Shown here: positions 24,655 through 35,393 of the stretch, piece after piece
How the letters are laid out: each line of letters begins with the position of its first letter
Numbering within the stretch: position 1 is the first letter of the stretch
Assembly (NCBI RefSeq): GCF_030813495.1
Contig: NZ_JAUSUI010000006.1
Coordinates: 372,001 to 436,000 of the forward strand
Source of the DNA: Ancylobacter polymorphus
GTDB lineage: Bacteria > Pseudomonadota > Alphaproteobacteria > Rhizobiales > Xanthobacteraceae
DNA length: 64,000 nucleotides
Reading direction: 5' to 3'
Notes under the pieces: generated by a model
What the model was told of the DNA's origin: nothing
Seen by the model: the letters and a program-made list of their open reading frames with translations, nothing else
The model's database searches: none
Position numbers and translations under genes: made by a program

Positions 24655-25560
24655 CTATCGAAGGGCCTGCCGGCACGCCTCGGCGAGCCGGCTGGGGTTA
24701 GCGGCCAGCGCCTCCACCGCCACCCAGCGATTCCAGTCGGCCGCCAGGCTCCAGCCCGGCCGGCCGACATAGGCGAGAGGCAGCCGGTAATGCAGCACGG
24801 CGCGCGGCTTCACCTTGCCGCTGATGCGATCCCCGATGGCCGGGAACAGCTCCAGGAACAGCGGCAGCAGATCGAGCGAGCGCTTGCGCGTCGGATTGGC
24901 CGCGACATAGTCGGCGCAAAGCGTGGCGAGGTCGGGCCGGTAGTCGGCTGAAATGACCCGCCTGACATAGTCAGCGGGGTAGGGCGGTGGCGCGTGGAAG
25001 CGCATCAGCCGGCTCGTCAGTGTCGCTTGGCGCAAGGCCGGTTCGCTCACCAGATAGGCCTGTAGCAGCCGCAGCAGCGTCCCGGCATCCGTGGCTTCCG
25101 GCATGACGTTGAAATGCAGGCCGAGCGAATCGGTGAATATCACCCCTTCGCCCCCCGCTCCCGCCGCGTGCAGCGCCTGAACCACACCATCCAATTCGCT
25201 GAGCCTCTCCACCGGCAATGGCCCGGTGATGAGTTCGCGCGGCACGAGCGGGCTCACCACCGCGCCGAGCCAGAGCGAGAGTGGCCCCAGTCGCCGGCCC
25301 GGGCCCTCGCGTCCGGGATGGACATGGCGCATATCGAGTTCGATGCCGAGGTTGCCGAGCCGTGAACCCGTGAGCCGAAAGGCGTGTGGGTCCTCCTTCT
25401 CCACCGTGCCCCCGATGAGGGCGCTGAGGCACTGCGCGGCGCCGCGCTCCGATAAGCGTGTGAATTCGATCTCGACGCCGACCAGCCGTGCGCGGCGGTC
25501 ACGGGTCAGCGGCGCGGGCAGGGGCTGAAAGGGCGGGCGTGGCGCGCTCACGCGCGGCAC
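24655..25560 (-). CDS. Putative amidoligase family protein
   Basis: Protein of 301 aa matching the amidoligase family of the glutamine-synthetase-like (COOH-NH2 ligase) superfamily. It opens with the strand LVGVEIEF, whose glutamates bind metal-ATP, followed by LGIELDMRHVHPG, the IFTDSLGLHFNVMPE block with another acidic/histidine set, and the YPADYVRRVISADYRPDLATLCADYV region. In described family members the gene is paired with a class I glutamine amidotransferase-like hydrolase; here no partner is present. The GTG at 25560 is tentative, with GTG 25551 also possible. The substrate is unknown. Confidence 0.7.
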   Translation of the reverse strand: MPRVSAPRPPFQPLPAPLTRDRRARLVGVEIEFTRLSERGAAQCLSALIGGTVEKEDPHAFRLTGSRLGNLGIELDMRHVHPGREGPGRRLGPLSLWLGAVVSPLVPRELITGPLPVERLSELDGVVQALHAAGAGGEGVIFTDSLGLHFNVMPEATDAGTLLRLLQAYLVSEPALRQATLTSRLMRFHAPPPYPADYVRRVISADYRPDLATLCADYVAANPTRKRSLDLLPLFLELFPAIGDRISGKVKPRAVLHYRLPLAYVGRPGWSLAADWNRWVAVEALAANPSRLAEACRQALR

Positions 25561-28194: not shown

Positions 28195-29994
28195 TCATCC
28201 CGCCTGCGTTTCCGCGATCTGGGCCATTCCGTCCGATTGCCGTTCGAAAAGGCGGCGGTAGCGACCGCCCTGACGCGCCAGCAGATCGCCATGCCGTCCA
28301 TCCTCAAGAATCCGGCCATGCTCGAAGACGAGGATGCGGTCCATGGCCCGCACCGTGGAAAGCCGGTGCGCGATGACGATGGCGGTGCGCCCCTGCATCA
28401 GCCGCTCCATCGCCTGCTGGATCGCGGCTTCCGATTCCGAATCGAGGCTGGAGGTCGCCTCGTCCAGAATGAGGATCGGGGCGTCGGCCAGGAAGGCGCG
28501 GGCGATCGCCACGCGCTGGCGCTCGCCGCCGGAGAGCTTCACGCCGCGTTCGCCGACGAGCGTGCGATAGCCCTTCGGCAGCCGCTCGATGAAGTCGTGG
28601 GCATTGGCGAGCCGCGCTGCATGCTCGATCTCCGCGGCGCTGGCACCGGGTCTGGCATAGGCGATGTTCTCCGCCAGCGTGCGGTGGAACAGGATCGGCT
28701 CCTGCTGCACGATGGCGATCTGCTGGCGCAGCGAGGCCTGGGCCACCTCCCGTACATCATGGCCGTCGATCATCACCCGGCCGCCGCTGACATCGTAGAG
28801 CCGCTGCAGCAGCTTGACGAAGGTGGTCTTGCCCGAGCCGGACGGCCCGACGAGGCCAACGCGCTGCCCGGCCGGGATCACCACATCCAGCCCGTCGAAC
28901 AGCGGCGCGGCATGGCGGCCATAATGAAAGGTAACGTGCTCGAAGCGCACCTCGCCACCGCGCACCGCCAGAGGCTTCGCGGCGTCGCGGTCGGCGACCC
29001 CGGCGGTGAGGGCGTGCAGATCGACCATCTCCTCCATGTCGTTCACCGCCCGCTGGAGATTGTGCACATGCTGGCCGATCTCGCGGAGATAGCCGTGCAG
29101 TACGAAATAGGTGGTGAGCACATAGGTGACGTCTCCCGGCGTGGCGCGGCCCTGCCACCACAGCCAGAGCGCCGTGGCGGTGACGGTGGTGCGCACCAGC
29201 CAGAGCAGCGCGAACTCGCCGCTGGCGCTCCAGGTCGACAGCATCCAGGTGCGCCACACCCGCCGCCGCCAGCGCGTGACCACGGCGCCGAGGCGTTCAT
29301 CCTCGCGCGCCTCGGCTCCGAAGGCCTTCACCACCTGGTTGGCGCCGAGCGTGTCGGAGAGGATGCCGCCGATGCGGGTGTCCCAGGCATTGGAGAGCCG
29401 CGCAGCCGGCGCGACGACGCGGGTCGCCAGCAGGACGGTGAGCGCGCCATAGGCCAGCGCGCCCGCCGCCATCACCAGCCCCATCACTGGCCAGTGCAGC
29501 ATCAGCAGCAGCACCGTGCCAGCCAGCACCACCACGGAAGGTAGCAGCGAGAGCAGAAGCACGTCGTTGATGACGTCGAGCGCCCACATGCCGCGGGTGA
29601 TCTTGCGCACTGTGGAGCCGGCGAAGCTATTGGCGTGCCAGTCGCTGGAGAAGCGCTGCACGCGGTGGAAAGCCTCGCGCACCACATCCGACATGATGCC
29701 CAGCGTCAGCGGCACCACGCCCCACCAGGCGAGATGGCGCAGCAGCACCATCACGAGGCCGAGCCCCGCCATCATGACAAAGGCCTGCAGCGCGGCGGGC
29801 GCCTCGCTCTTGCCGGCGGTCAGGGCGTCGATCAGCCGCCCGGCATAGAGCGGCACGAACACCTCGGTCAGCGTCGCCACAACGATGGCCGCGCCGATGC
29901 CGGCTGCCATCGGCCATCGGCGCGCCCAGTGGCGGAAGGTGAAGGCAAGCACGTTGCGCAGCGCGTCGCTGCCGCGTTCAATCGGAAATGACAT
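28195..29994 (-). CDS. ABC exporter, fused membrane and ATPase domains
   Basis: Half-transporter of 599 aa, membrane domain first (six hydrophobic segments within about residues 25-320) and ATPase second. ATPase motifs: Walker A GPSGSGKTT near residue 390, Q-loop IVQQEPILF, signature LSGGERQRVAIARA, Walker B ILILDEATSSLDSE and the H-loop IAHRLST. Size and layout match MsbA-like exporters and also the D-type exporters of lasso-peptide clusters. It is on the same strand as and downstream of the DUF6065 gene (243 bp gap), so it may export the peptide made by this locus, but a general lipid or drug exporter is possible. A hairpin separates AGGAG from the ATG. Confidence 0.88.
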   Translation of the reverse strand: MSFPIERGSDALRNVLAFTFRHWARRWPMAAGIGAAIVVATLTEVFVPLYAGRLIDALTAGKSEAPAALQAFVMMAGLGLVMVLLRHLAWWGVVPLTLGIMSDVVREAFHRVQRFSSDWHANSFAGSTVRKITRGMWALDVINDVLLLSLLPSVVVLAGTVLLLMLHWPVMGLVMAAGALAYGALTVLLATRVVAPAARLSNAWDTRIGGILSDTLGANQVVKAFGAEAREDERLGAVVTRWRRRVWRTWMLSTWSASGEFALLWLVRTTVTATALWLWWQGRATPGDVTYVLTTYFVLHGYLREIGQHVHNLQRAVNDMEEMVDLHALTAGVADRDAAKPLAVRGGEVRFEHVTFHYGRHAAPLFDGLDVVIPAGQRVGLVGPSGSGKTTFVKLLQRLYDVSGGRVMIDGHDVREVAQASLRQQIAIVQQEPILFHRTLAENIAYARPGASAAEIEHAARLANAHDFIERLPKGYRTLVGERGVKLSGGERQRVAIARAFLADAPILILDEATSSLDSESEAAIQQAMERLMQGRTAIVIAHRLSTVRAMDRILVFEHGRILEDGRHGDLLARQGGRYRRLFERQSDGMAQIAETQAG

Positions 29995-30003
29995 GGGACG
30001 TGC

Positions 30004-30022
30004 AGGCGCGAAAGACGCGCCT
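30004..30022 (-). promoter_or_regulatory. Hairpin between Shine-Dalgarno and start of the ABC exporter
   Basis: On the minus strand, AGGAG (30027-30023) directly abuts a perfect 7-bp stem with a 5-base loop (AGGCGCG, TCTTT, CGCGCCT; 30022-30004), and nine bases follow before the ATG at 29994. If the hairpin forms, AGGAG would sit about nine bases from the start; without it the spacing is too long. Confidence 0.4.
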
Positions 30023-30101
30023 CTCCTGCGAACAGAAATCAGTTCAGAGCGGGAAATGGGTGATGGAGCGGCGGGGGAGCGCGGCTCCGCAGCCGGCCGA
30101 A

Positions 30102-30152
30102 CTAGCCGTGCCGAATCCCAGCCGGGGTGGGCCGACGAAACAGAATAGTCAT
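30102..30152 (-). CDS. Possible 16-aa leader ORF upstream of the ABC exporter
   Basis: The frame encodes MTILFRRPTPAGIRHG and has a strong GGGAGGGG six bases before its ATG. It lies between the DUF6065 gene and the exporter on the same strand. It could be a leader peptide, a decayed precursor gene or chance; the ribosome-binding site is the only support. Confidence 0.25.
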   Translation of the reverse strand: MTILFRRPTPAGIRHG

Positions 30153-30237
30153 GCGTGCCCCTCCCTGGTTCGCAATATCACTATCCCCACCCATACCATG
30201 ATCCGCCGGCGCCGACAATCGAATGGGGAGGGGGCTT

Positions 30238-31302
30238 TCAGCCGACGCGGGCAATGGCGTGGCGGGCGAGCAGGTCCGCGGCCAGTTGCAGCATGTCGGC
30301 CGCCAGCCTCTCCCGCTCCACGTCGAAGTCGTCGAGCAGGGTGTCGATGATGCTGGCCAGAGAGCGGGTGCCATCCATCAGCGCAACCGCGAGACGCGCC
30401 GTCTCGTTCATCTCTGTCGCCTCGTCGACGGCGGTGTCCGCCGCAACGGCCCTGAACACGGCGGTTTCATCGAGGCCGGCGCCGTCCGTTTGCGCGGGGG
30501 GGTGGTCGCCCGTCCCATGCACATAGCTCATGCCCTGCGGCGCCAGATCGCCGAAACCGGCGTCGCGCTCGGGGGATGCCAGCCGACGCTTGATGCGGTG
30601 GTCCTCGGTCGCCCGCAGCCGGCCGGTGGGGGACTGGCCCTGCAGGTAGAAGCGCTGCCATTTCTGCGCCTGCGCCTCGGGGTCCTGCTCTGCCAGCTTC
30701 CGGTTGAAGGCAAGGCGGGAGTCCCGCCAGCTGGCATATTCCCGCTCCAGATCGGGGTCGGACGCCAGCGGGCGCAGGCGCGGCGTCACGTTCTCAAGCG
30801 CCACGCTGGGCCAGAGGCTTAAGAAGCAGAACGGCTCTCCGGCGGCGAAGCGCACGCTGCCGGGCTGGAGGAAGCGCCAGTTCATGGTGAAGGTGAACGG
30901 TGCCCAGTTGGTCTCGACGATACCGTCGAGCGGCGCGATTCCCGGCTTCATGCGGTTGGGCGATCCGCGGCACCAGATCACCCAGTCCGGGTCGGTGCGG
31001 AAGAGATAGCCGGTCTGGAAGGTGAGGATGCCGGAGCCGAAATGCGACGACGCATAGGCTGGCACGCTGCCATCGTCGGCACGGACGACGATATCCTCCA
31101 GGCCGGCGCCGCCATTCCAGCTCGCGGTCAGGTCGACGGGATTGATGAGTTCCCAGCCGGAGGCATTGGCGATGGAGAGCGGCGTGCAGCGATAGGCGAA
31201 GCGGTCCGGCGTGCCGTCCATCCAATCGCGCTCGGAGGCCCCGGGCACGATCAGCGGTGGGTCGTTGAACAGGGGATAGCAGTCGAGGCGCAGCCCAGCC
31301 AT
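30238..31302 (-). CDS. DUF6065-like protein with C-terminal PqqD-like domain (RiPP locus)
   Basis: Protein of 354 aa in two parts. Residues 1 to about 255 match the uncharacterised DUF6065 family as I recall it: an early RFAYRCTPLSIANASGWELI block, the SHFGSGILTFQTGYLFRT block, SPNRMKPGIAPLDGIVETNW, then FTMNWRF and GEPFCF. The last 65 residues align clearly with the C-terminal half of the PqqD-like protein at 32727 (shared MDG-R-LA-I, L-DDF-V-R, D-L-L-LL pattern), so the enzyme seems to carry its own peptide-recognition domain. It lies 70 bp after the hairpin that ends the precursor 1 region, same strand. The reaction is unknown; modification of the adjacent peptides is inferred from context. 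Confidence 0.75.
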   Translation of the reverse strand: MAGLRLDCYPLFNDPPLIVPGASERDWMDGTPDRFAYRCTPLSIANASGWELINPVDLTASWNGGAGLEDIVVRADDGSVPAYASSHFGSGILTFQTGYLFRTDPDWVIWCRGSPNRMKPGIAPLDGIVETNWAPFTFTMNWRFLQPGSVRFAAGEPFCFLSLWPSVALENVTPRLRPLASDPDLEREYASWRDSRLAFNRKLAEQDPEAQAQKWQRFYLQGQSPTGRLRATEDHRIKRRLASPERDAGFGDLAPQGMSYVHGTGDHPPAQTDGAGLDETAVFRAVAADTAVDEATEMNETARLAVALMDGTRSLASIIDTLLDDFDVERERLAADMLQLAADLLARHAIARVG

Positions 31303-31371
31303 GTCCGCGTTTCCATGTCAGCCGGCCCGGGAGACGTGCACGCCGCCATGAGGTGGAGCGCACATATATAA

Positions 31372-31395
31372 GGCCCATCCTGCCAAGGATGGGCC
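31372..31395 (-). terminator. Hairpin downstream of precursor 1, terminator-like
   Basis: Perfect 9-bp stem (GGCCCATCC 31372-31380, loop of six, GGATGGGCC 31387-31395). On the minus strand it is followed by TTATATAT. It starts 53 bases after the precursor 1 stop and probably separates abundant precursor transcript from the DUF6065 gene. Confidence 0.65.
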
Positions 31396-31447
31396 TGCAC
31401 GTTCTGAAATGCCAAGACGCGTGGCGCTCACGCCTGCACGTCGAGCC

Positions 31448-31606
31448 TCACGGCGGCGGCGGGGGAGGAGGCGGCGGAGGCGGGGGAGGAGGCGGCGCCG
31501 GCGGCACAAACGGCACTCCAGACACCGGGATAACCGGCGCAGGAGCCGAGGCTGAACTCAGCCGAACGGTCTGCGTGACCATTGGCGGCACGTATGGTTT
31601 TTTCAT
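31448..31606 (-). CDS. RiPP precursor-like peptide 1 with polyproline tail
   Basis: Peptide of 52 aa. Residues 1-36 match precursors 2 and 3: MKKPYVPPMVTQTVRL, a serine/alanine stretch, then PVIPVSGVPFVPP. The leader-like Y5-x-x-P8-x-V10 resembles the YxxPxL motif that lasso leaders present to the B1/PqqD-like protein, but the later leader glycine is absent. Unlike its sisters, which stop right after VPP-x, it continues after Ala37 with 15 consecutive prolines encoded by a CCG/CCT/CCC repeat. GGGGGAGGGA precedes the ATG. It has its own promoter copy. Core boundaries are unknown. Confidence 0.72.
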   Translation of the reverse strand: MKKPYVPPMVTQTVRLSSASAPAPVIPVSGVPFVPPAPPPPPPPPPPPPPPP

Positions 31607-31626
31607 TCCCTCCCCCATGTTCCGAC

Positions 31627-31680
31627 GTAAATCGCAACATTCATTCACATGTCATTGCCCAATTGGGGTGTCAACGCTCT
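31627..31680 (-). promoter_or_regulatory. Promoter cassette of precursor 1
   Basis: On the minus strand a TTGACA -35 box (31674-31669) is followed by the palindrome CCCAATTGGG (31667-31658) in the spacer and a weak -10 near CATGTG (31651-31646). These 54 bases match 32091-32144 at 52 positions, so they are a duplicated promoter and 5' leader. A palindrome between -35 and -10 is a natural repressor site. Confidence 0.6.
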
Positions 31681-31870
31681 CCAAGGACAAGCTGCGGGAC
31701 CGCGCGACAATGGTGTCCAGGTGCGGTCTTGCTGACACAGTCGTGCTCGTCGCTGTGCCAGAGGCGGCCTGTGCCTTCTGGCCCAATGCCTCTGGGCGCG
31801 AACATATTCGCTTTGAAAATGCCGTCCGCCCTCTGGCATGGGGAACGGAGCTTCCTAACGTGAAGGAGGC

Positions 31871-31897
31871 GTCTCCGGCGCCTGTCGCGCCGGAGAC
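31871..31897 (-). terminator. Hairpin downstream of precursor 2
   Basis: Perfect 11-bp stem GTCTCCGGCGC (31871-31881) with GCGCCGGAGAC (31887-31897), five-base loop. It begins 58 bases after the precursor 2 stop, the same distance as the equivalent hairpin after precursor 3. There is no T-tract, so it may protect the 3' end of the mRNA or be a rho-assisted stop. Confidence 0.6.
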
Positions 31898-31954
31898 GAT
31901 CACGTATTGGCCAAGACGACAAAGCGCGGTGCGAAAACGCACGCGCTACACCGC

Positions 31955-32068
31955 TCAGGTCGGCGGCACGAGCGGCGCCCCGGACACCGGGACAACCGGC
32001 GCAGGAGCCGACGCGGAGGTCAAACGGACCGTCGGCGTGACCATTGGCGGCACATACGGCTTCTTCAT
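31955..32068 (-). CDS. RiPP precursor-like peptide 2
   Basis: Peptide of 37 aa: begins MKKPYVPPMVTPTVRL and ends PVVPVSGAPLVPPT. It is the same length as precursor 3, with the Y5/P8/V10 leader pattern and invariant Ser29-Gly30. GGGG-rich sequence with GGGGA lies just upstream of the ATG. The start-to-start distance to precursor 1 is 462 bp, and the upstream 54 bases are nearly identical to those of precursor 1, so these are tandem duplicates. Conserved Ser29 is a candidate site for the HprK-like kinase encoded nearby (inference). Confidence 0.75.
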   Translation of the reverse strand: MKKPYVPPMVTPTVRLTSASAPAPVVPVSGAPLVPPT

Positions 32069-32090
32069 TCCCCAAACCCCTAATTTAGAA

Positions 32091-32144
32091 GTAAATCGCA
32101 ACATTCATTCACATGTCATCGCCCATTTGGGGTGTCAACGCTCT
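32091..32144 (-). promoter_or_regulatory. Promoter cassette of precursor 2
   Basis: Minus-strand TTGACA (32138-32133) is followed by the spacer palindrome-like CCCAAATGGG (32131-32122). It differs from the precursor 1 cassette at only two of 54 positions, one of them inside the palindrome. Confidence 0.6.
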
Positions 32145-32328
32145 TCAAATGGGAAGCAGCGGGCCGCGCGAAGTCGGTCGCCTCGCGTCGCATTGCCGAC
32201 ACAGCCGTTCGACTCGCCGGTGTGAAAAAGGGGGTGTGCCCTGGATCGCGCGCGTCGGCAGCACGCATGCGCTTGCGAACGCCGCGCCGGGTCTGCGGTC
32301 GCAGCCGCGTGCCATTCGGGATGGAAGT

Positions 32329-32355
32329 ATCCCCAGCGCCTGACGCGCCGGGGAT
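32329..32355 (-). terminator. Hairpin downstream of precursor 3
   Basis: ATCCCCAGCGC (32329-32339) pairs with GCGCCGGGGAT (32345-32355) with one mismatch and a five-base loop. It lies 58 bases after the precursor 3 stop, matching the precursor 2 arrangement in position and loop sequence (CTGAC against CTGTC) although the stem differs. No T-tract. Confidence 0.55.
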
Positions 32356-32412
32356 GAGTATGTGATGGCGGAGACGGAAAACGCGCGGCGCGGAGCGCCT
32401 GCGCTCGGATAC

Positions 32413-32526
32413 TCAGCCGGGCGGTACGATTGGCGCGCCGGACACCGGGACAACCGGATCGACGCCCGACGCGGCGGTCAAGCGAACCGTCGGCGTGACC
32501 ATCGGTGGCACATAAGGCTTCTTCAT
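32413..32526 (-). CDS. RiPP precursor-like peptide 3
   Basis: Peptide of 37 aa: begins MKKPYVPPMVTPTVRL, diverges in the middle (TAASGVDP where the others have SASAPAP), then PVVPVSGAPIVPPG. The first 16 residues and the PV-x-PVSG-x-P-x-VPP frame are shared with the other two, so both ends are under constraint and the middle varies. AAGGGG and GGGA lie upstream of the ATG. It is nearest to the divergent modification operon, 458 bp before precursor 2. Confidence 0.75.
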   Translation of the reverse strand: MKKPYVPPMVTPTVRLTAASGVDPVVPVSGAPIVPPG

Positions 32527-32540
32527 TCCCAACCCCTTGT

Positions 32541-32600
32541 TTCGACTTAAATTGCAACGTTGATACACATCACTACTCAGGTAGGGTGTCAATCGGCTCC
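32541..32600 (-). promoter_or_regulatory. Promoter cassette of precursor 3
   Basis: A third, more diverged copy: TTGACACCC (from 32592 leftwards) is kept, the spacer palindrome becomes CTACCTGAGTAG, and TTGCAATTTAAG replaces the TTGCGATTTAC of the other two. This segment also lies in the divergent region from which the PqqD operon is transcribed. Confidence 0.5.
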
Positions 32601-32726
32601 AGAGATGCCGGCACGGTGGCCCGTTGGCATTTGCATGTCGACACCACGCTGCCTCTGGTGCGTGTGGCCCGCGCGTGGCATGGGAGACCGCTCAACGTGT
32701 CGCCACACGCTGGCGGGGAGGACGAA

Positions 32727-33011
32727 TTGGAACTGGACTGTGTGCTTCGCGTTTCCCCACTCGCCAGCTTCCAGCCGCTCGGCGACAGTGCCGTGGTTCT
32801 GCGCATCGACAGTGGTCAGCTGTATTCGGCGAATGCCACGGCGCAGGCGCTGCTCTCCGCCATGGATGGGGAGCGCACCCTCGCGGACATCGCCTCCCTC
32901 CTCATGGACGACTTCCACGTCGACCGTGATGTTCTGGAGCGGGATCTGCTGGCGCTGAGCCGGCAGCTTCTGGACGACGGTATCGTGGATCAGGTGCCCT
33001 CCGCGTCATGA
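32727..33011 (+). CDS. PqqD-like peptide recognition protein (RiPP recognition element)
   Basis: Protein of 94 aa with the PqqD fold pattern: beta strands in SPLASFQPLGDSAVVLRIDSGQLYSAN followed by helices in LLSAMDGERTLADIASLLMDDF and the final LLALSRQLLDDGIVDQV. PqqD-like/B1 proteins bind leader peptides and present them to modifying enzymes. The TTG at 32727 is chosen because GGGGAGGA lies just upstream and the fold starts there; the open frame extends to 32505 into the promoter of precursor 3. Its stop overlaps the B2 gene (ATGA). It resembles the PqqD proteins described with HprK-related kinase A systems. Confidence 0.82.
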   Translation: MELDCVLRVSPLASFQPLGDSAVVLRIDSGQLYSANATAQALLSAMDGERTLADIASLLMDDFHVDRDVLERDLLALSRQLLDDGIVDQVPSAS

Positions 33012-33418
33012 TCCGGGCGGCGCTGCGTCGACGGCTGTGGTGGGAGGCGCGCTTTCTGCCGCTTCGGGTCCTGGGGCGGGACTTTGCCGGTCTCCTGGCG
33101 CTCGCGAACCGTCCGCTCCGCAACGTTGACGCGCAGGGCCTGCCGGCGGCGGAGATCGTTGCCGCCGTGGTTGCAGCGACCCGGCGACCCTGGATGATGC
33201 GCAACCGCCGCTGCCTGCGGCAGGGACTTCTGGCCTTCCGCGCCCTTCACAGTGCCGGCCACCGGCCCGCGCTGCATTTCGGCGTCGATGCGGCAGGTCT
33301 GAAGGACCGGGATGGCGTGGTGCATTGCTGGATCGTGGTCGCGGGCGAGGTCGTTCTCAACCCTCCCAATCCGGGAATGACGACCGTATTCATTCATTCC
33401 TTGCCGGATCCGGGCTGA
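33008..33418 (+). CDS. Lasso peptide biosynthesis B2-like protease
   Basis: Transglutaminase-like cysteine protease of 136 aa, the class that removes leader peptides in lasso biosynthesis. Cys69 lies in NRRCLRQGLLAFRAL and His107 in VHCWIVVAGEVVLNPP, both in family-typical context, followed by the usual substrate-side block. The third triad residue, normally an Asp about 12 residues after the His, appears as Asn118-Pro-Pro, so activity needs testing. It overlaps pqqD-like by ATGA and the kinase by TGATG, so it is tightly coupled. Confidence 0.82.
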   Translation: MIRAALRRRLWWEARFLPLRVLGRDFAGLLALANRPLRNVDAQGLPAAEIVAAVVAATRRPWMMRNRRCLRQGLLAFRALHSAGHRPALHFGVDAAGLKDRDGVVHCWIVVAGEVVLNPPNPGMTTVFIHSLPDPG

Positions 33419-34401
33419 TGCACAGGCTCTGCTTTGCCCTTGGCGCAGAGAGCTGGGTGGTGGAGGGCTCCGATGCCTGCCTGCTTCCACCCCTGCGCGC
33501 CCTTCTCGGCGGGCTCGAACGCGATCCCGCCGCGGCCGCGCCGCCGACATGGCGCCTGGAACTTGGCCGGCCCGACATCACTGGAACGCAGGGGCTTGTG
33601 CTGCACGAAGGGCAGATGGAAACCGGCCCGCCTTTCCGCCTGTTTGAGACCACCGACGCACTCGTCCTGCTCTGTGGCAGCGAACTGCGCATCGAGGCCA
33701 ATCGCGCGGATGGCACCGGGTGGGCGATGGTGGCGCCCGGCAGTGAGAGACTGCTCATGGGTCAGGCCGGCGTCTTCATGATGTCGGCCGCGCTCGACAG
33801 CGTGGGGCAGCAACTCGTCCATGCCGCCGCTCTGGTGCGACCCGGCGGGACCGGCGCCATTCTGCTGGCGGCGCCGAGCGGGGCGGGCAAGACCACCACG
33901 GCGCTCGCGCTTGCCCAGCAGGGTTTCGGCCTGATGTCCGATGATGGCGCGGTGCTTTGTCCCGGTGCCGGGGGCGTGGGAGTCTGGGGGCTCCCCCGTC
34001 GTCCAAAAGTCCACCGGGCGACGGCTGCGCTGTTGCCCTCGCTCGAACCGGGCCTTGGCAGCGACTGGGACGCCGCAGGCGAGCAGCCGCTCGACCTCGC
34101 GCGCCTCAGCGGGCTCGGCGTGGCGCCGCCCGGCCTCGTGCTGCCGCTGGAAGCGCTTATCTGGCTGGCTGGGCGCCGGGCGGGGGCGGCGCGCTGCGCG
34201 CCGATGGCCCGGGATGTTTTTCTCTCCGGCTTCGCGGCCGACAATCTCAATCGCGGGACGACGGGCGTGCCCCAGCACCATCTGAGGCGATTCGTGGCCA
34301 TGAGCCGGGCGGTCGGCCACGCGCCCACCTATGAGCTGCGGGTCGGCGACGATCTCGCCGATGTGGGCGAGGCGCTCCGGCGGGGGCTCGCCCAGGCATG
34401 A
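33418..34401 (+). CDS. HprK-like serine kinase (RiPP locus)
   Basis: Protein of 327 aa related to the kinase domain of HPr kinase/phosphorylase. It has LVHAAALV at about 134-141, Walker A APSGAGKTT at 152-160, then the acidic SDDGAVL at 174-180 as the Mg/Walker B-like element. The N-terminal 130 residues are specific to this group. In paeninodin-type lasso clusters such kinases phosphorylate a precursor serine; here Ser29 of the peptides is a candidate. It overlaps its neighbours on both sides (TGATG, ATGA). It matches what is called HprK-related kinase A. Confidence 0.8.
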   Translation: MHRLCFALGAESWVVEGSDACLLPPLRALLGGLERDPAAAAPPTWRLELGRPDITGTQGLVLHEGQMETGPPFRLFETTDALVLLCGSELRIEANRADGTGWAMVAPGSERLLMGQAGVFMMSAALDSVGQQLVHAAALVRPGGTGAILLAAPSGAGKTTTALALAQQGFGLMSDDGAVLCPGAGGVGVWGLPRRPKVHRATAALLPSLEPGLGSDWDAAGEQPLDLARLSGLGVAPPGLVLPLEALIWLAGRRAGAARCAPMARDVFLSGFAADNLNRGTTGVPQHHLRRFVAMSRAVGHAPTYELRVGDDLADVGEALRRGLAQA

Positions 34402-35393
34402 GCCTAACTCAGCTCGCCCCCACCCATGCCTGCTGGCTGCTCGCCCTTTCCGACCCTGAGGGGCCGGGGCCGGACCTGTCGACCCTTCCTCCCGCCGCCG
34501 TGCCGGAACTGCTGGCGGCGGCGCGGGCGCATCTCATCCTGCCCGTCCTGTGGCGCCGTCTTCGCGAGATGCGGACGGCGGAAACCGCGGTGGCGCTCGA
34601 TAAGGCGCATGGGGAATTGGAACTGCTCACTGCCCACGGCCTGCTGCTGACCCATTATGCCGGCCGCATCGCCGCGGCTCTGGCGGCCGCGCAGGCGCGC
34701 TTCGCCATCGTCAAGGGGCGCGCCTTCGCACCGCTCTACCCGCATGCCTCCGACCGGCCTTTCACCGATATCGATATGCTGGTGCAGCCCGAGGACCGGG
34801 CGATGGTCGAGGCGGCGCTCGAGGCGCTGGATTTCGTGCCGGTTCCGCGCAAGACCATCGACCATTCAGCCGCCTATGGCGAATTCAAATGGACCGCCCG
34901 TCAGGCCCCGAATGTGCTGGTCGAGGTTCACCTGAACCTGGTGCATTATCCGTTGCTGCGCCGCACCGTGTCCCTGTCGCTGGATGACCTCGCCGCGTTC
35001 GGCGGCGCCGAGGCGCCGGCCGGCCGGCTCATGGTCGCCGTGGCCCATGCCGCCGCCGGCCACAAATTTCACGCGCTGCGGCTGATCGTCGACGTGCTGC
35101 AGGCCGCGCGGGCGATGGATGTGCAGACGGCGCAGACCTTTGCCGAGACGGCCGTGCAGCGCGGCTGGGCGCTGGAGGCCGGCATCGCGCTCGATCTTGC
35201 CGCGCGGCTTTATGGCGATGCGCGGACCGCCGCCATCGCCGCCTTGCTGCCATCGATGCCTGCACGGGCGCTTGCCGCCCGCCTGCTGTCGGAGACGGCG
35301 ATCCTCGACGCCCCGCAGCACGGCATCGCCTCCCGTCTCCGCCGCACCCTGGTGCGCGGCCTGCAGCATGTGCGGCCGACGCGCCGGCGATGA
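34398..35393 (+). CDS. Nucleotidyltransferase family protein (RiPP locus)
   Basis: Protein of 331 aa of the NTP_transf_5-like family. The active-site region reads FAIVKGRAFAPLYPHASDR then PFTDIDMLVQ, giving the KG motif (106-107) and the metal-binding D-x-D (Asp124, Asp126). The rest is helical and alanine-rich. Proteins of this type occur in lasso and related RiPP clusters near HprK-like kinases; whether they nucleotidylate the peptide is not settled. Last gene of the overlapping four-gene operon, convergent with the efflux adaptor 18 bp away. Confidence 0.8.
   Translation: MSLTQLAPTHACWLLALSDPEGPGPDLSTLPPAAVPELLAAARAHLILPVLWRRLREMRTAETAVALDKAHGELELLTAHGLLLTHYAGRIAAALAAAQARFAIVKGRAFAPLYPHASDRPFTDIDMLVQPEDRAMVEAALEALDFVPVPRKTIDHSAAYGEFKWTARQAPNVLVEVHLNLVHYPLLRRTVSLSLDDLAAFGGAEAPAGRLMVAVAHAAAGHKFHALRLIVDVLQAARAMDVQTAQTFAETAVQRGWALEAGIALDLAARLYGDARTAAIAALLPSMPARALAARLLSETAILDAPQHGIASRLRRTLVRGLQHVRPTRRR

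Follow-up and report, generated by a model that had tools for sequence, protein, structure and literature searches.

Gene content of the locus

A locus with the genes of a predicted peptide natural product (positions 28195-35393) was analysed in 64,000 nt of the Ancylobacter polymorphus genome (NZ_JAUSUI010000006.1:372,001-436,000, assembly GCF_030813495.1). This whole stretch is referred to as the window and all positions are window positions unless a contig is named. The locus combines three tiny precursor genes with a leader peptidase of lasso-peptide type, a kinase and a nucleotidyltransferase, and it lacks a lasso cyclase. It was followed through related genomes as a candidate cluster for a ribosomally synthesised and post-translationally modified peptide (RiPP). 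Four genes on the plus strand make up the cassette:

32505-33011, plus strand: discrete RiPP recognition element (RRE; PqqD/B1), PF05402 at 4.1e-13, lasso_PqqD_Strm at 6.6e-6 and under its cut-off
33008-33418, plus strand: B2-type leader peptidase, 136 residues, NF033537 at 3.5e-12 (46.8 bits, cut-off 33)
33418-34401, plus strand: HprK-like kinase, 327 residues, assigned from HprK structure matches and invariant residues
34398-35393, plus strand: nucleotidyltransferase (NTase), 331 residues, PF14907 at 2.6e-24

The precursor genes and the conserved blocks before them lie on the minus strand, the blocks being defined by an alignment of five copies:

31448-31606, minus strand: precursor A, 52 residues, MKKPYVPPMVTQTVRLSSASAPAPVIPVSGVPFVPPA followed by 15 Pro; predicted core PAPVIPVSGVPFVPPA followed by 15 Pro; profile match 3.1e-9
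31955-32068, minus strand: precursor B, 37 residues, MKKPYVPPMVTPTVRLTSASAPAPVVPVSGAPLVPPT; leader MKKPYVPPMVTPTVRLTSASA, predicted core PAPVVPVSGAPLVPPT; profile match 1.6e-11
32413-32526, minus strand: precursor C, 37 residues, MKKPYVPPMVTPTVRLTAASGVDPVVPVSGAPIVPPG; predicted core VDPVVPVSGAPIVPPG; profile match 7e-12
31607-31680, minus strand: block upstream of precursor A, with TTGACA at 31669-31674 (TGTCAA on the plus strand)
32069-32145, minus strand: block upstream of precursor B, with TTGACA at 32133-32138
32527-32600, minus strand: block upstream of precursor C, with TTGACA at 32587-32592

On this strand the precursor genes are followed by the DUF6065-RRE gene and then by the exporter gene:

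30238-31302, minus strand: DUF6065 domain (residues ~6-241; PF19541, 2.7e-93) with a C-terminal PqqD/RRE domain (~281-352)
28195-29994, minus strand: MsbA-type ABC exporter, 599 residues (PF00005/PF00664; MsbA-like, under the MsbA cut-offs)

An earlier sequence-only reading had named a PqqD-like protein, B2, an HprK-like kinase, an NTase, an ABC exporter, a DUF6065 protein and three precursors. All were present in 28195-35393; the second PqqD/RRE domain, at the C-terminal end of the DUF6065 protein, had gone unmentioned. The cassette genes overlap by 1-4 bases (RRE stop and B2 start in ATGA, B2 and kinase in TGATG, kinase and NTase in ATGA) and so appear as one translationally coupled unit. 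As listed, the RRE open reading frame (ORF) overlaps precursor C and its upstream block. Its PqqD domain was matched from residue 96, and the true start probably lies further inside the listed frame.

TIGR04352, 'HprK-related kinase A', describes an HprK-like P-loop kinase beside a PqqD-like protein. The window kinase reached 31.9 bits against its cut-off of 200, and the assignment to that system made in the sequence-only reading was therefore rejected. The kinase profile (A1) matched HprK structures 1ko7 and 1jb1 in the P-loop region (E 0.0011-0.0012), and H142, K165, D182 and D183 (A1 numbering) were invariant in 8/8 aligned sequences. These may correspond to the His-Lys-Asp-Asp set reported as essential in lasso kinases (review PMC9266682). 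A plasmid search with the kinase gave no match.

The Cys and His of B2 were conserved in an alignment of 19 sequences, and a PDB sequence search with B2 gave no useful match. A catalytic Asp at His+12 was considered and dropped: the position is Ser, Asn or Gly here (78 rows) and Gly in three Mesorhizobium lasso B2 proteins, from which nothing follows.

Each upstream block starts with TTGACA, 66-70 bases before the precursor start; a consensus promoter scan called 0 of the 3 blocks. The five precursor copies compared were the three of the window and two of the closest relative (L055, Ancylobacter vacuolatus). Third codon positions differed most in 9 of the 10 pairs, with a tie with first positions in the remaining pair. 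Between A and C, for instance, the differences at codon positions 1/2/3 were 5/6/20, and between B and one of the L055 copies 3/2/7; the two L055 copies (2/1/2) gave no third-position excess. The window cores are proline-rich with Ser at core position 8 (PVSG), and residue -2 is Ser. Neither Asp nor Glu occurs in precursors A and B, and precursor C has only an Asp, at core position 2.

Two further genes were recorded. About 2.6 kb to the left of the exporter, at 24655-25560 on the minus strand, lies the gene of an Amidoligase_2 protein (PF12224, 4.7e-29). An orphan B2-like protein (5.7e-24) of the same genome lies at C3:368448-368828 on the minus strand (L186), on a contig without a match to PF00733, the profile used below for the cyclase.

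Recurrence of the cassette

A genome collection was scanned with the kinase alignment, which gave 289 stretches and 114 relatives; the best 80 were kept, and 69 exceed 20.5 kb. Flanks were covered up to 10 kb, so that genes at the edges could be missed. Among these best 80 of the 114 relatives, RRE, kinase and NTase were each found in 80/80 and B2 in 79/80 (exception L100). One locus (L124) held a lasso-C-like protein, which is AsnB-like by sequence. The 80 loci are not independent cases because most are from Mesorhizobium; the others include Ancylobacter, Prosthecomicrobium, Hyphomicrobiaceae, Nitratireductor, Chelativorans and Roseovarius. No ABC match was found in the covered flanks of L055.

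Some kinase match was present in 22 of 199 genomes of the order, and a strong one in eight. The complete set of RRE, B2, kinase and NTase was present in each of the seven strong-kinase genomes besides that of the window, and the 16-20 kb examined there contained no lasso C protein. Seven of the 14 weak-kinase genomes were checked and had no RRE, B2 or NTase; the eight cassette genomes are a minimum, counted without the other seven. Among 398 genomes drawn from the phylum, a strong kinase match occurred in 7, all of the same order.

Genes for an AMP-ligase, a GNAT protein and an acyl carrier protein (ACP) stand beside the cassette in 8/80 loci, none of them Mesorhizobium (L057, L058, L123, L124, L125, L131, L132, L134). 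These genes were noted at L040 as well; Pfam checks of them were made at L040, L123 and L132. The trio suggests acylated variants in other lineages. The AMP-ligase near two checked Mesorhizobium cassettes was rejected as a cassette part, being acetyl-CoA-synthetase-like and probably a mere neighbour.

Search for a lasso cyclase

The absence of a lasso cyclase from the 64 kb, noted earlier, was confirmed: no PF00733 match was found in the window, and the six matches of the genome all lie elsewhere. Two Asn-synthetase-like genes of the same genome (C1:106690, C8:45048) stand in loci with PqqD and HprK-like genes, and no B2 match was found near them. The surrounding regions (L044, C8:29000-48999; L045, C1:98000-117999) encode PqqD, an Asn-synthetase-like protein with a GATase domain, HprK-like proteins (under the Pfam cut-off), a sulfotransferase and phage tail-collar proteins.

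Two cassette genomes gave weak PF00733 matches only: three in G161 (100% complete, best 5.8e-5) and one in G132 (99% complete, 1e-8). The frames concerned (415-450 residues) were taken for other enzymes of the superfamily. A cyclase encoded elsewhere and conserved together with the locus, which the sequence-only reading had named as an objection to itself, is thus not borne out.

A lasso-type C gene lay within 15 kb of the cassette in 1/8 cassette genomes (G136). This answers the proposed count for the eight genomes; the 80 loci, covered to 10 kb flanks only, yielded the one AsnB-like match. G136, G069 and G105 each have a separate lasso-type C gene with its own B2, at a distance from the cassette of roughly 9, 25 and 27 kb, respectively. 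In G069 (L051) this gene is accompanied by an RRE of its own and by a lasso precursor (Gly1, Asp9) that scores above the NCBI lasso_cyano cut-off.

Of the features that define a lasso cluster, the window thus has an RRE (B1) with a B2 leader peptidase. No cyclase is in the cluster, and the pairing of a residue 1 amine with Asp or Glu at 7-9 was not found in the precursors. Since precursors A and B have no Asp or Glu, the locus is not a lasso cluster.

The precursor family

Eight precursors served as the seed of an iterated profile for a search over 87 stretches, which hold at least two apparent duplicates (L036 = L110, L037 = L109). The profile gave 91 matches in 46 of the stretches, with up to 11 at one locus (L123) and 10 at L132. 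A second profile, built from 17 family members, was run on the 199 genomes of the order at E<=1e-6. Seven genomes matched, all among the eight recognised cassette genomes, and none of the 191 others; the eighth (G161) had matches at 7.7e-5 and weaker. The chance of this co-occurrence is 3.6e-12 if genomes are independent, an assumption that fails because three are close relatives and some profile rows were drawn from these genomes. A lack of conservation of the small ORFs, which would have spoken against the sequence-only reading, was not seen: precursor genes occur in 8/8 cassette genomes, though linked to the cassette in 46/87 stretches only.

Precursor matches stand at a distance from the cassette in G136, a single-contig genome, and on other contigs in G069, so linkage does not explain the match between precursors and cassette. 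The best matches are also distant in G043 and G105, with only weak ones beside the cassette. For the genomes tested, distant precursors account for stretches without a linked one. Some unlinked precursors have Cys-containing cores (e.g. ACTPSTCPV; G136:C1:2838498-2843526, L165; G069:C22, L166) and have glycosyltransferase-like, flavoprotein and patatin genes nearby; those of G136, which belongs to the same genus group as the Mesorhizobium genomes, stand among GINT1_N, FAD_binding_3, 2-hydroxyacid dehydrogenase and patatin genes. At L038:7857-8252 (minus strand), beside a cassette, the leader of the family is fused to a Peptidase_S74 (tail-fibre chaperone) domain.

The leader consensus of the family is MKKxYxKPxLxKRExLSAVTA and the window leader is YVPPMVTPTVRLTSASA. 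The register was anchored on the Tyr of the RRE motif as -17, which placed 91 of 94 rows (3 not anchored). In this register Pro(-14) was found in 80/91, Leu(-6) in 84/91, Thr or Val(-2) in 75/91 and Ala(-1) in 83/91. Tyr and Pro thus stand in the YxxP register of lasso leaders; Thr(-2), another feature of these leaders, occurs in 45/91 of the family but is Ser in the window precursors.

For the Ser count, cores were parsed from 92/94 rows with a split that favours a leader ending in Ala 16 residues after Tyr; the fixed-offset register is cleaner. Predicted cores were 5-16 residues long in 85/92 parsed precursors (median 11), with 88 distinct sequences. Ser stood at core 3-5 in 72/88 distinct cores, against a mean of 29.5 and a maximum of 44 in within-core shuffles (0/5000 reached 72), an enrichment that is partly selected for because the collecting profiles include core columns. 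Over 46 loci, the window counted among them, Ser or Thr was found at core 3-5 in all precursors of 39 and in at least one precursor of 42. Exceptions include the window, L055 and L078 (Ancylobacter or near), where Ser follows a proline-rich stretch at 7 or 8.

The DUF6065-RRE protein

DUF6065 was found in 1/80 cassette loci (L055) and gave a match in 26/199 genomes of the order. None of RRE, B2, kinase and NTase was found in the neighbourhoods of 17 other DUF6065 genes, several of which are ended by contig ends; an Asn-synthetase-like protein was present in one (L239). On these counts DUF6065 was rejected as a standard cluster part, and its earlier description as a lasso accessory does not hold. 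The DUF6065 model resembles dUTPase folds, so that the domain may share the dUTPase/dCTP-deaminase fold, and the fusion protein is put forward as a candidate RRE-guided tailoring enzyme of the Ancylobacter lineage. A role as proline hydroxylase was a guess that found no support in fold or domain results. A sulfotransferase domain (PF00685) is a frequent fusion partner of DUF6065 among the homologous proteins listed (e.g. P0009, P0021, P0029).

Proposed pathway and alternative explanations

A gene set that recurs without a cyclase was observed, together with a precursor family that has a fixed leader register and a preferred Ser zone. The locus is more than a lasso cluster minus one gene. It is read here as a cyclase-free, lasso-related RiPP cluster making linear phosphorylated peptides, with a probability of roughly 0.7, and its product would best be described as an equivalent, alphaproteobacterial and processed by B2, to the linear polyphosphorylated peptides (LPP) known from Bacillota. 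The leader-cleaved, phosphorylated, linear, proline-rich product suggested by the sequence-only reading is consistent with this.

The three tiny precursors would be expressed, each behind its own conserved upstream block. If the enzymes act as their characterised homologues do, the RRE would capture the leader through Tyr(-17)-x-x-Pro(-14) and the HprK-like kinase would phosphorylate, perhaps polyphosphorylate, a core Ser (Ser8 of PVSG here, Ser 3-5 in most relatives). B2 would then cut after residue -1 (ASA/PAPVV...), and the phosphate would be extended by the NTase with a nucleotidyl or hexosyl group. Judging by proximity, domain fusion and fold, DUF6065-RRE may tailor or trim the modified proline-rich core and the ABC exporter may secrete the peptide.

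Several points weigh against this reading. The product chemistry is deduced from genes, and peptide product, transcript and enzyme activity are all predicted. The window precursors deviate from their family, with Ser at core 8 instead of 3-5 and Ser instead of Thr or Val at -2. In 41/87 stretches no linked precursor was found, many precursor rows are close relatives, and the Ser enrichment carries the selection stated above. Six of the 88 distinct cores, including four at L132, are compatible with a lasso ring. The alignments gave no position for the third catalytic residue of B2, and neither DUF6065 nor the exporter is a conserved cassette partner. For the NTase, deletion of lppN gave no visible change in the LPP expression system (PMC13381572), and how the NTase PsmN acts is described as open (review PMC9266682).

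An unlikely alternative, which survives best, is that phosphorylation is a mere step: the kinase would activate Ser for transfer by the NTase, or for AMP-ligase/ACP/GNAT acylation in other loci, and the mature peptide would not be a phosphopeptide. In its favour, NTase and kinase recur equally often (each in 80/80 loci), hexose on phospho-Ser reportedly requires PsmN (PMC9266682), the acylation genes occur at 8/80 loci, and the LPP family is itself named after an intermediate, its authors not having found the final product (PMC13381572). Against this, the AMP-ligase/ACP/GNAT trio was not found at the window locus, and none of the genes identified in the operon is devoted to supplying a sugar or nucleotide donor.

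Closure of a lasso ring in trans by one of the two Asn-synthetase-like proteins (C1:106690, C8:45048) is very improbable. Their loci, with PqqD and HprK-like genes, do place a C-like partner in the cell, but each has its own PqqD, kinase, sulfotransferase and tail-collar proteins. The precursors offer no acceptor in A and B and only Asp at core 2 in C, and G161 and G132 keep the cassette with nothing beyond weak PF00733 matches. A shade less probable is that the small ORFs are not substrates and that the cassette modifies a protein or another peptide. The stretches without a linked precursor favour this; against it stand the restriction of the family to the eight cassette genomes (0/191 others at E<=1e-6) and leaders that carry the RRE motif in the register reported for a characterised RRE substrate. 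Least probable of all is that a former lasso cluster is decaying after loss of its cyclase and no longer yields a product. The cyclase is missing, DUF6065 recurs once in 80 loci and the exporter was not found beside the L055 cassette; against decay, the four overlapping genes are intact, precursor copies differ mainly at third codon positions and the loci examined share this gene set without a cyclase.

An extension of the phosphorylated-peptide reading is tentative and rather doubtful. The cassette might represent a large, separate alphaproteobacterial RiPP family, in which the lasso leader peptidase is kept and ring closure is replaced by phosphate chemistry on very short peptides. In the Ancylobacter lineage, the RRE-fused domain, with its putative dUTPase fold, might act on a proline-rich peptide by editing the phosphate or nucleotidyl group that kinase and NTase had added. 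If true, DUF6065-RRE could be the kind of missing partner postulated by the LPP authors for an apparently inactive NTase. The fusion would tie a domain family of unassigned function to a testable substrate.

Comparison with known systems

A literature search returned nothing on HprK-related kinase, HPr-rel-A, DUF6065, PF19541, or RiPP with HprK and Alphaproteobacteria; most subscription papers and the bioRxiv preprints were outside its scope, so an earlier description is possible. The sequence-only reading had known of no characterised product; this was incomplete, as the LPP of Bacillota are now an experimentally studied close analogue (PMC13381572).

LPP were described in 2026 in Bacillota, with the lpp cluster of Paenibacillus alginolyticus; the core is linear, LppK phosphorylates its Ser3 and no cyclase is present (PMC13381572). 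The reported LPP gene set of discrete RRE, HprK-like kinase, NTase and MsbA-like exporter, with a YxxP leader and no macrolactam cyclase, is also that of the window, although the exporter was not seen beside L055. LPP clusters are reported to lie often near lasso clusters, as the cassettes of G136, G069 and G105 lie near a lasso-type C gene. Unlike LPP, for which an archaeal-type SpI peptidase is described, the cassette keeps a lasso-type B2; the SpI-like peptidase TIGR02228 was found in 0/8 cassette genomes, the same search being positive in 8/14 control genomes. The LPP leader consensus YxxPxVLxHQxIxFETxxS is absent from the cassette precursors. Predicted cores are mostly of 5-16 residues against 45 in LppA, and up to 11 precursor matches occur per locus against one to three in LPP. 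The (poly)phospho-Ser of LPP is near the core N terminus; the predicted Ser zone here is 3-5 in the family, with Ser8 in the window.

Phosphorylated lasso peptides (BsfA, paeninodin, pseudomycoidin) share RRE, B2 and HprK-like kinase with the cassette, and pseudomycoidin also the NTase. BsfA of Bradymonas has YxxPxL at -17 to -12; BsfK phosphorylates its Ser3, helped by BsfB1, and BsfB2 removes the leader with BsfB1 (PMC10368454). The cassette leaders follow the same Y(-17)xxPxL register. Unlike the window locus, where precursors A and B offer no acceptor, these systems have a C protein and a ring on Asp or Glu.

The locus belongs to neither group: the lasso cyclase and ring acceptor on one side, and the peptidase and leader motif of LPP on the other, were looked for and not found. 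It appears to represent an uncharacterised natural-product family that recurs, with matching peptide genes, in many related bacteria and is directly testable. Its very short predicted substrates (median core 11 residues, 88 distinct) are defined ones with which to ask what HprK-like kinases and PF14907 NTases make, a question left open by the LPP work. The LPP authors describe their family as restricted to Bacillota (PMC13381572). The present results suggest that dropping the cyclase while keeping the kinase-NTase pair is not a speciality of that phylum, and that Alphaproteobacteria have a second, B2-processed form with its own searchable precursor family. This form would work like LPP and phosphorylated lasso biosynthesis, without the ring closure of the latter.

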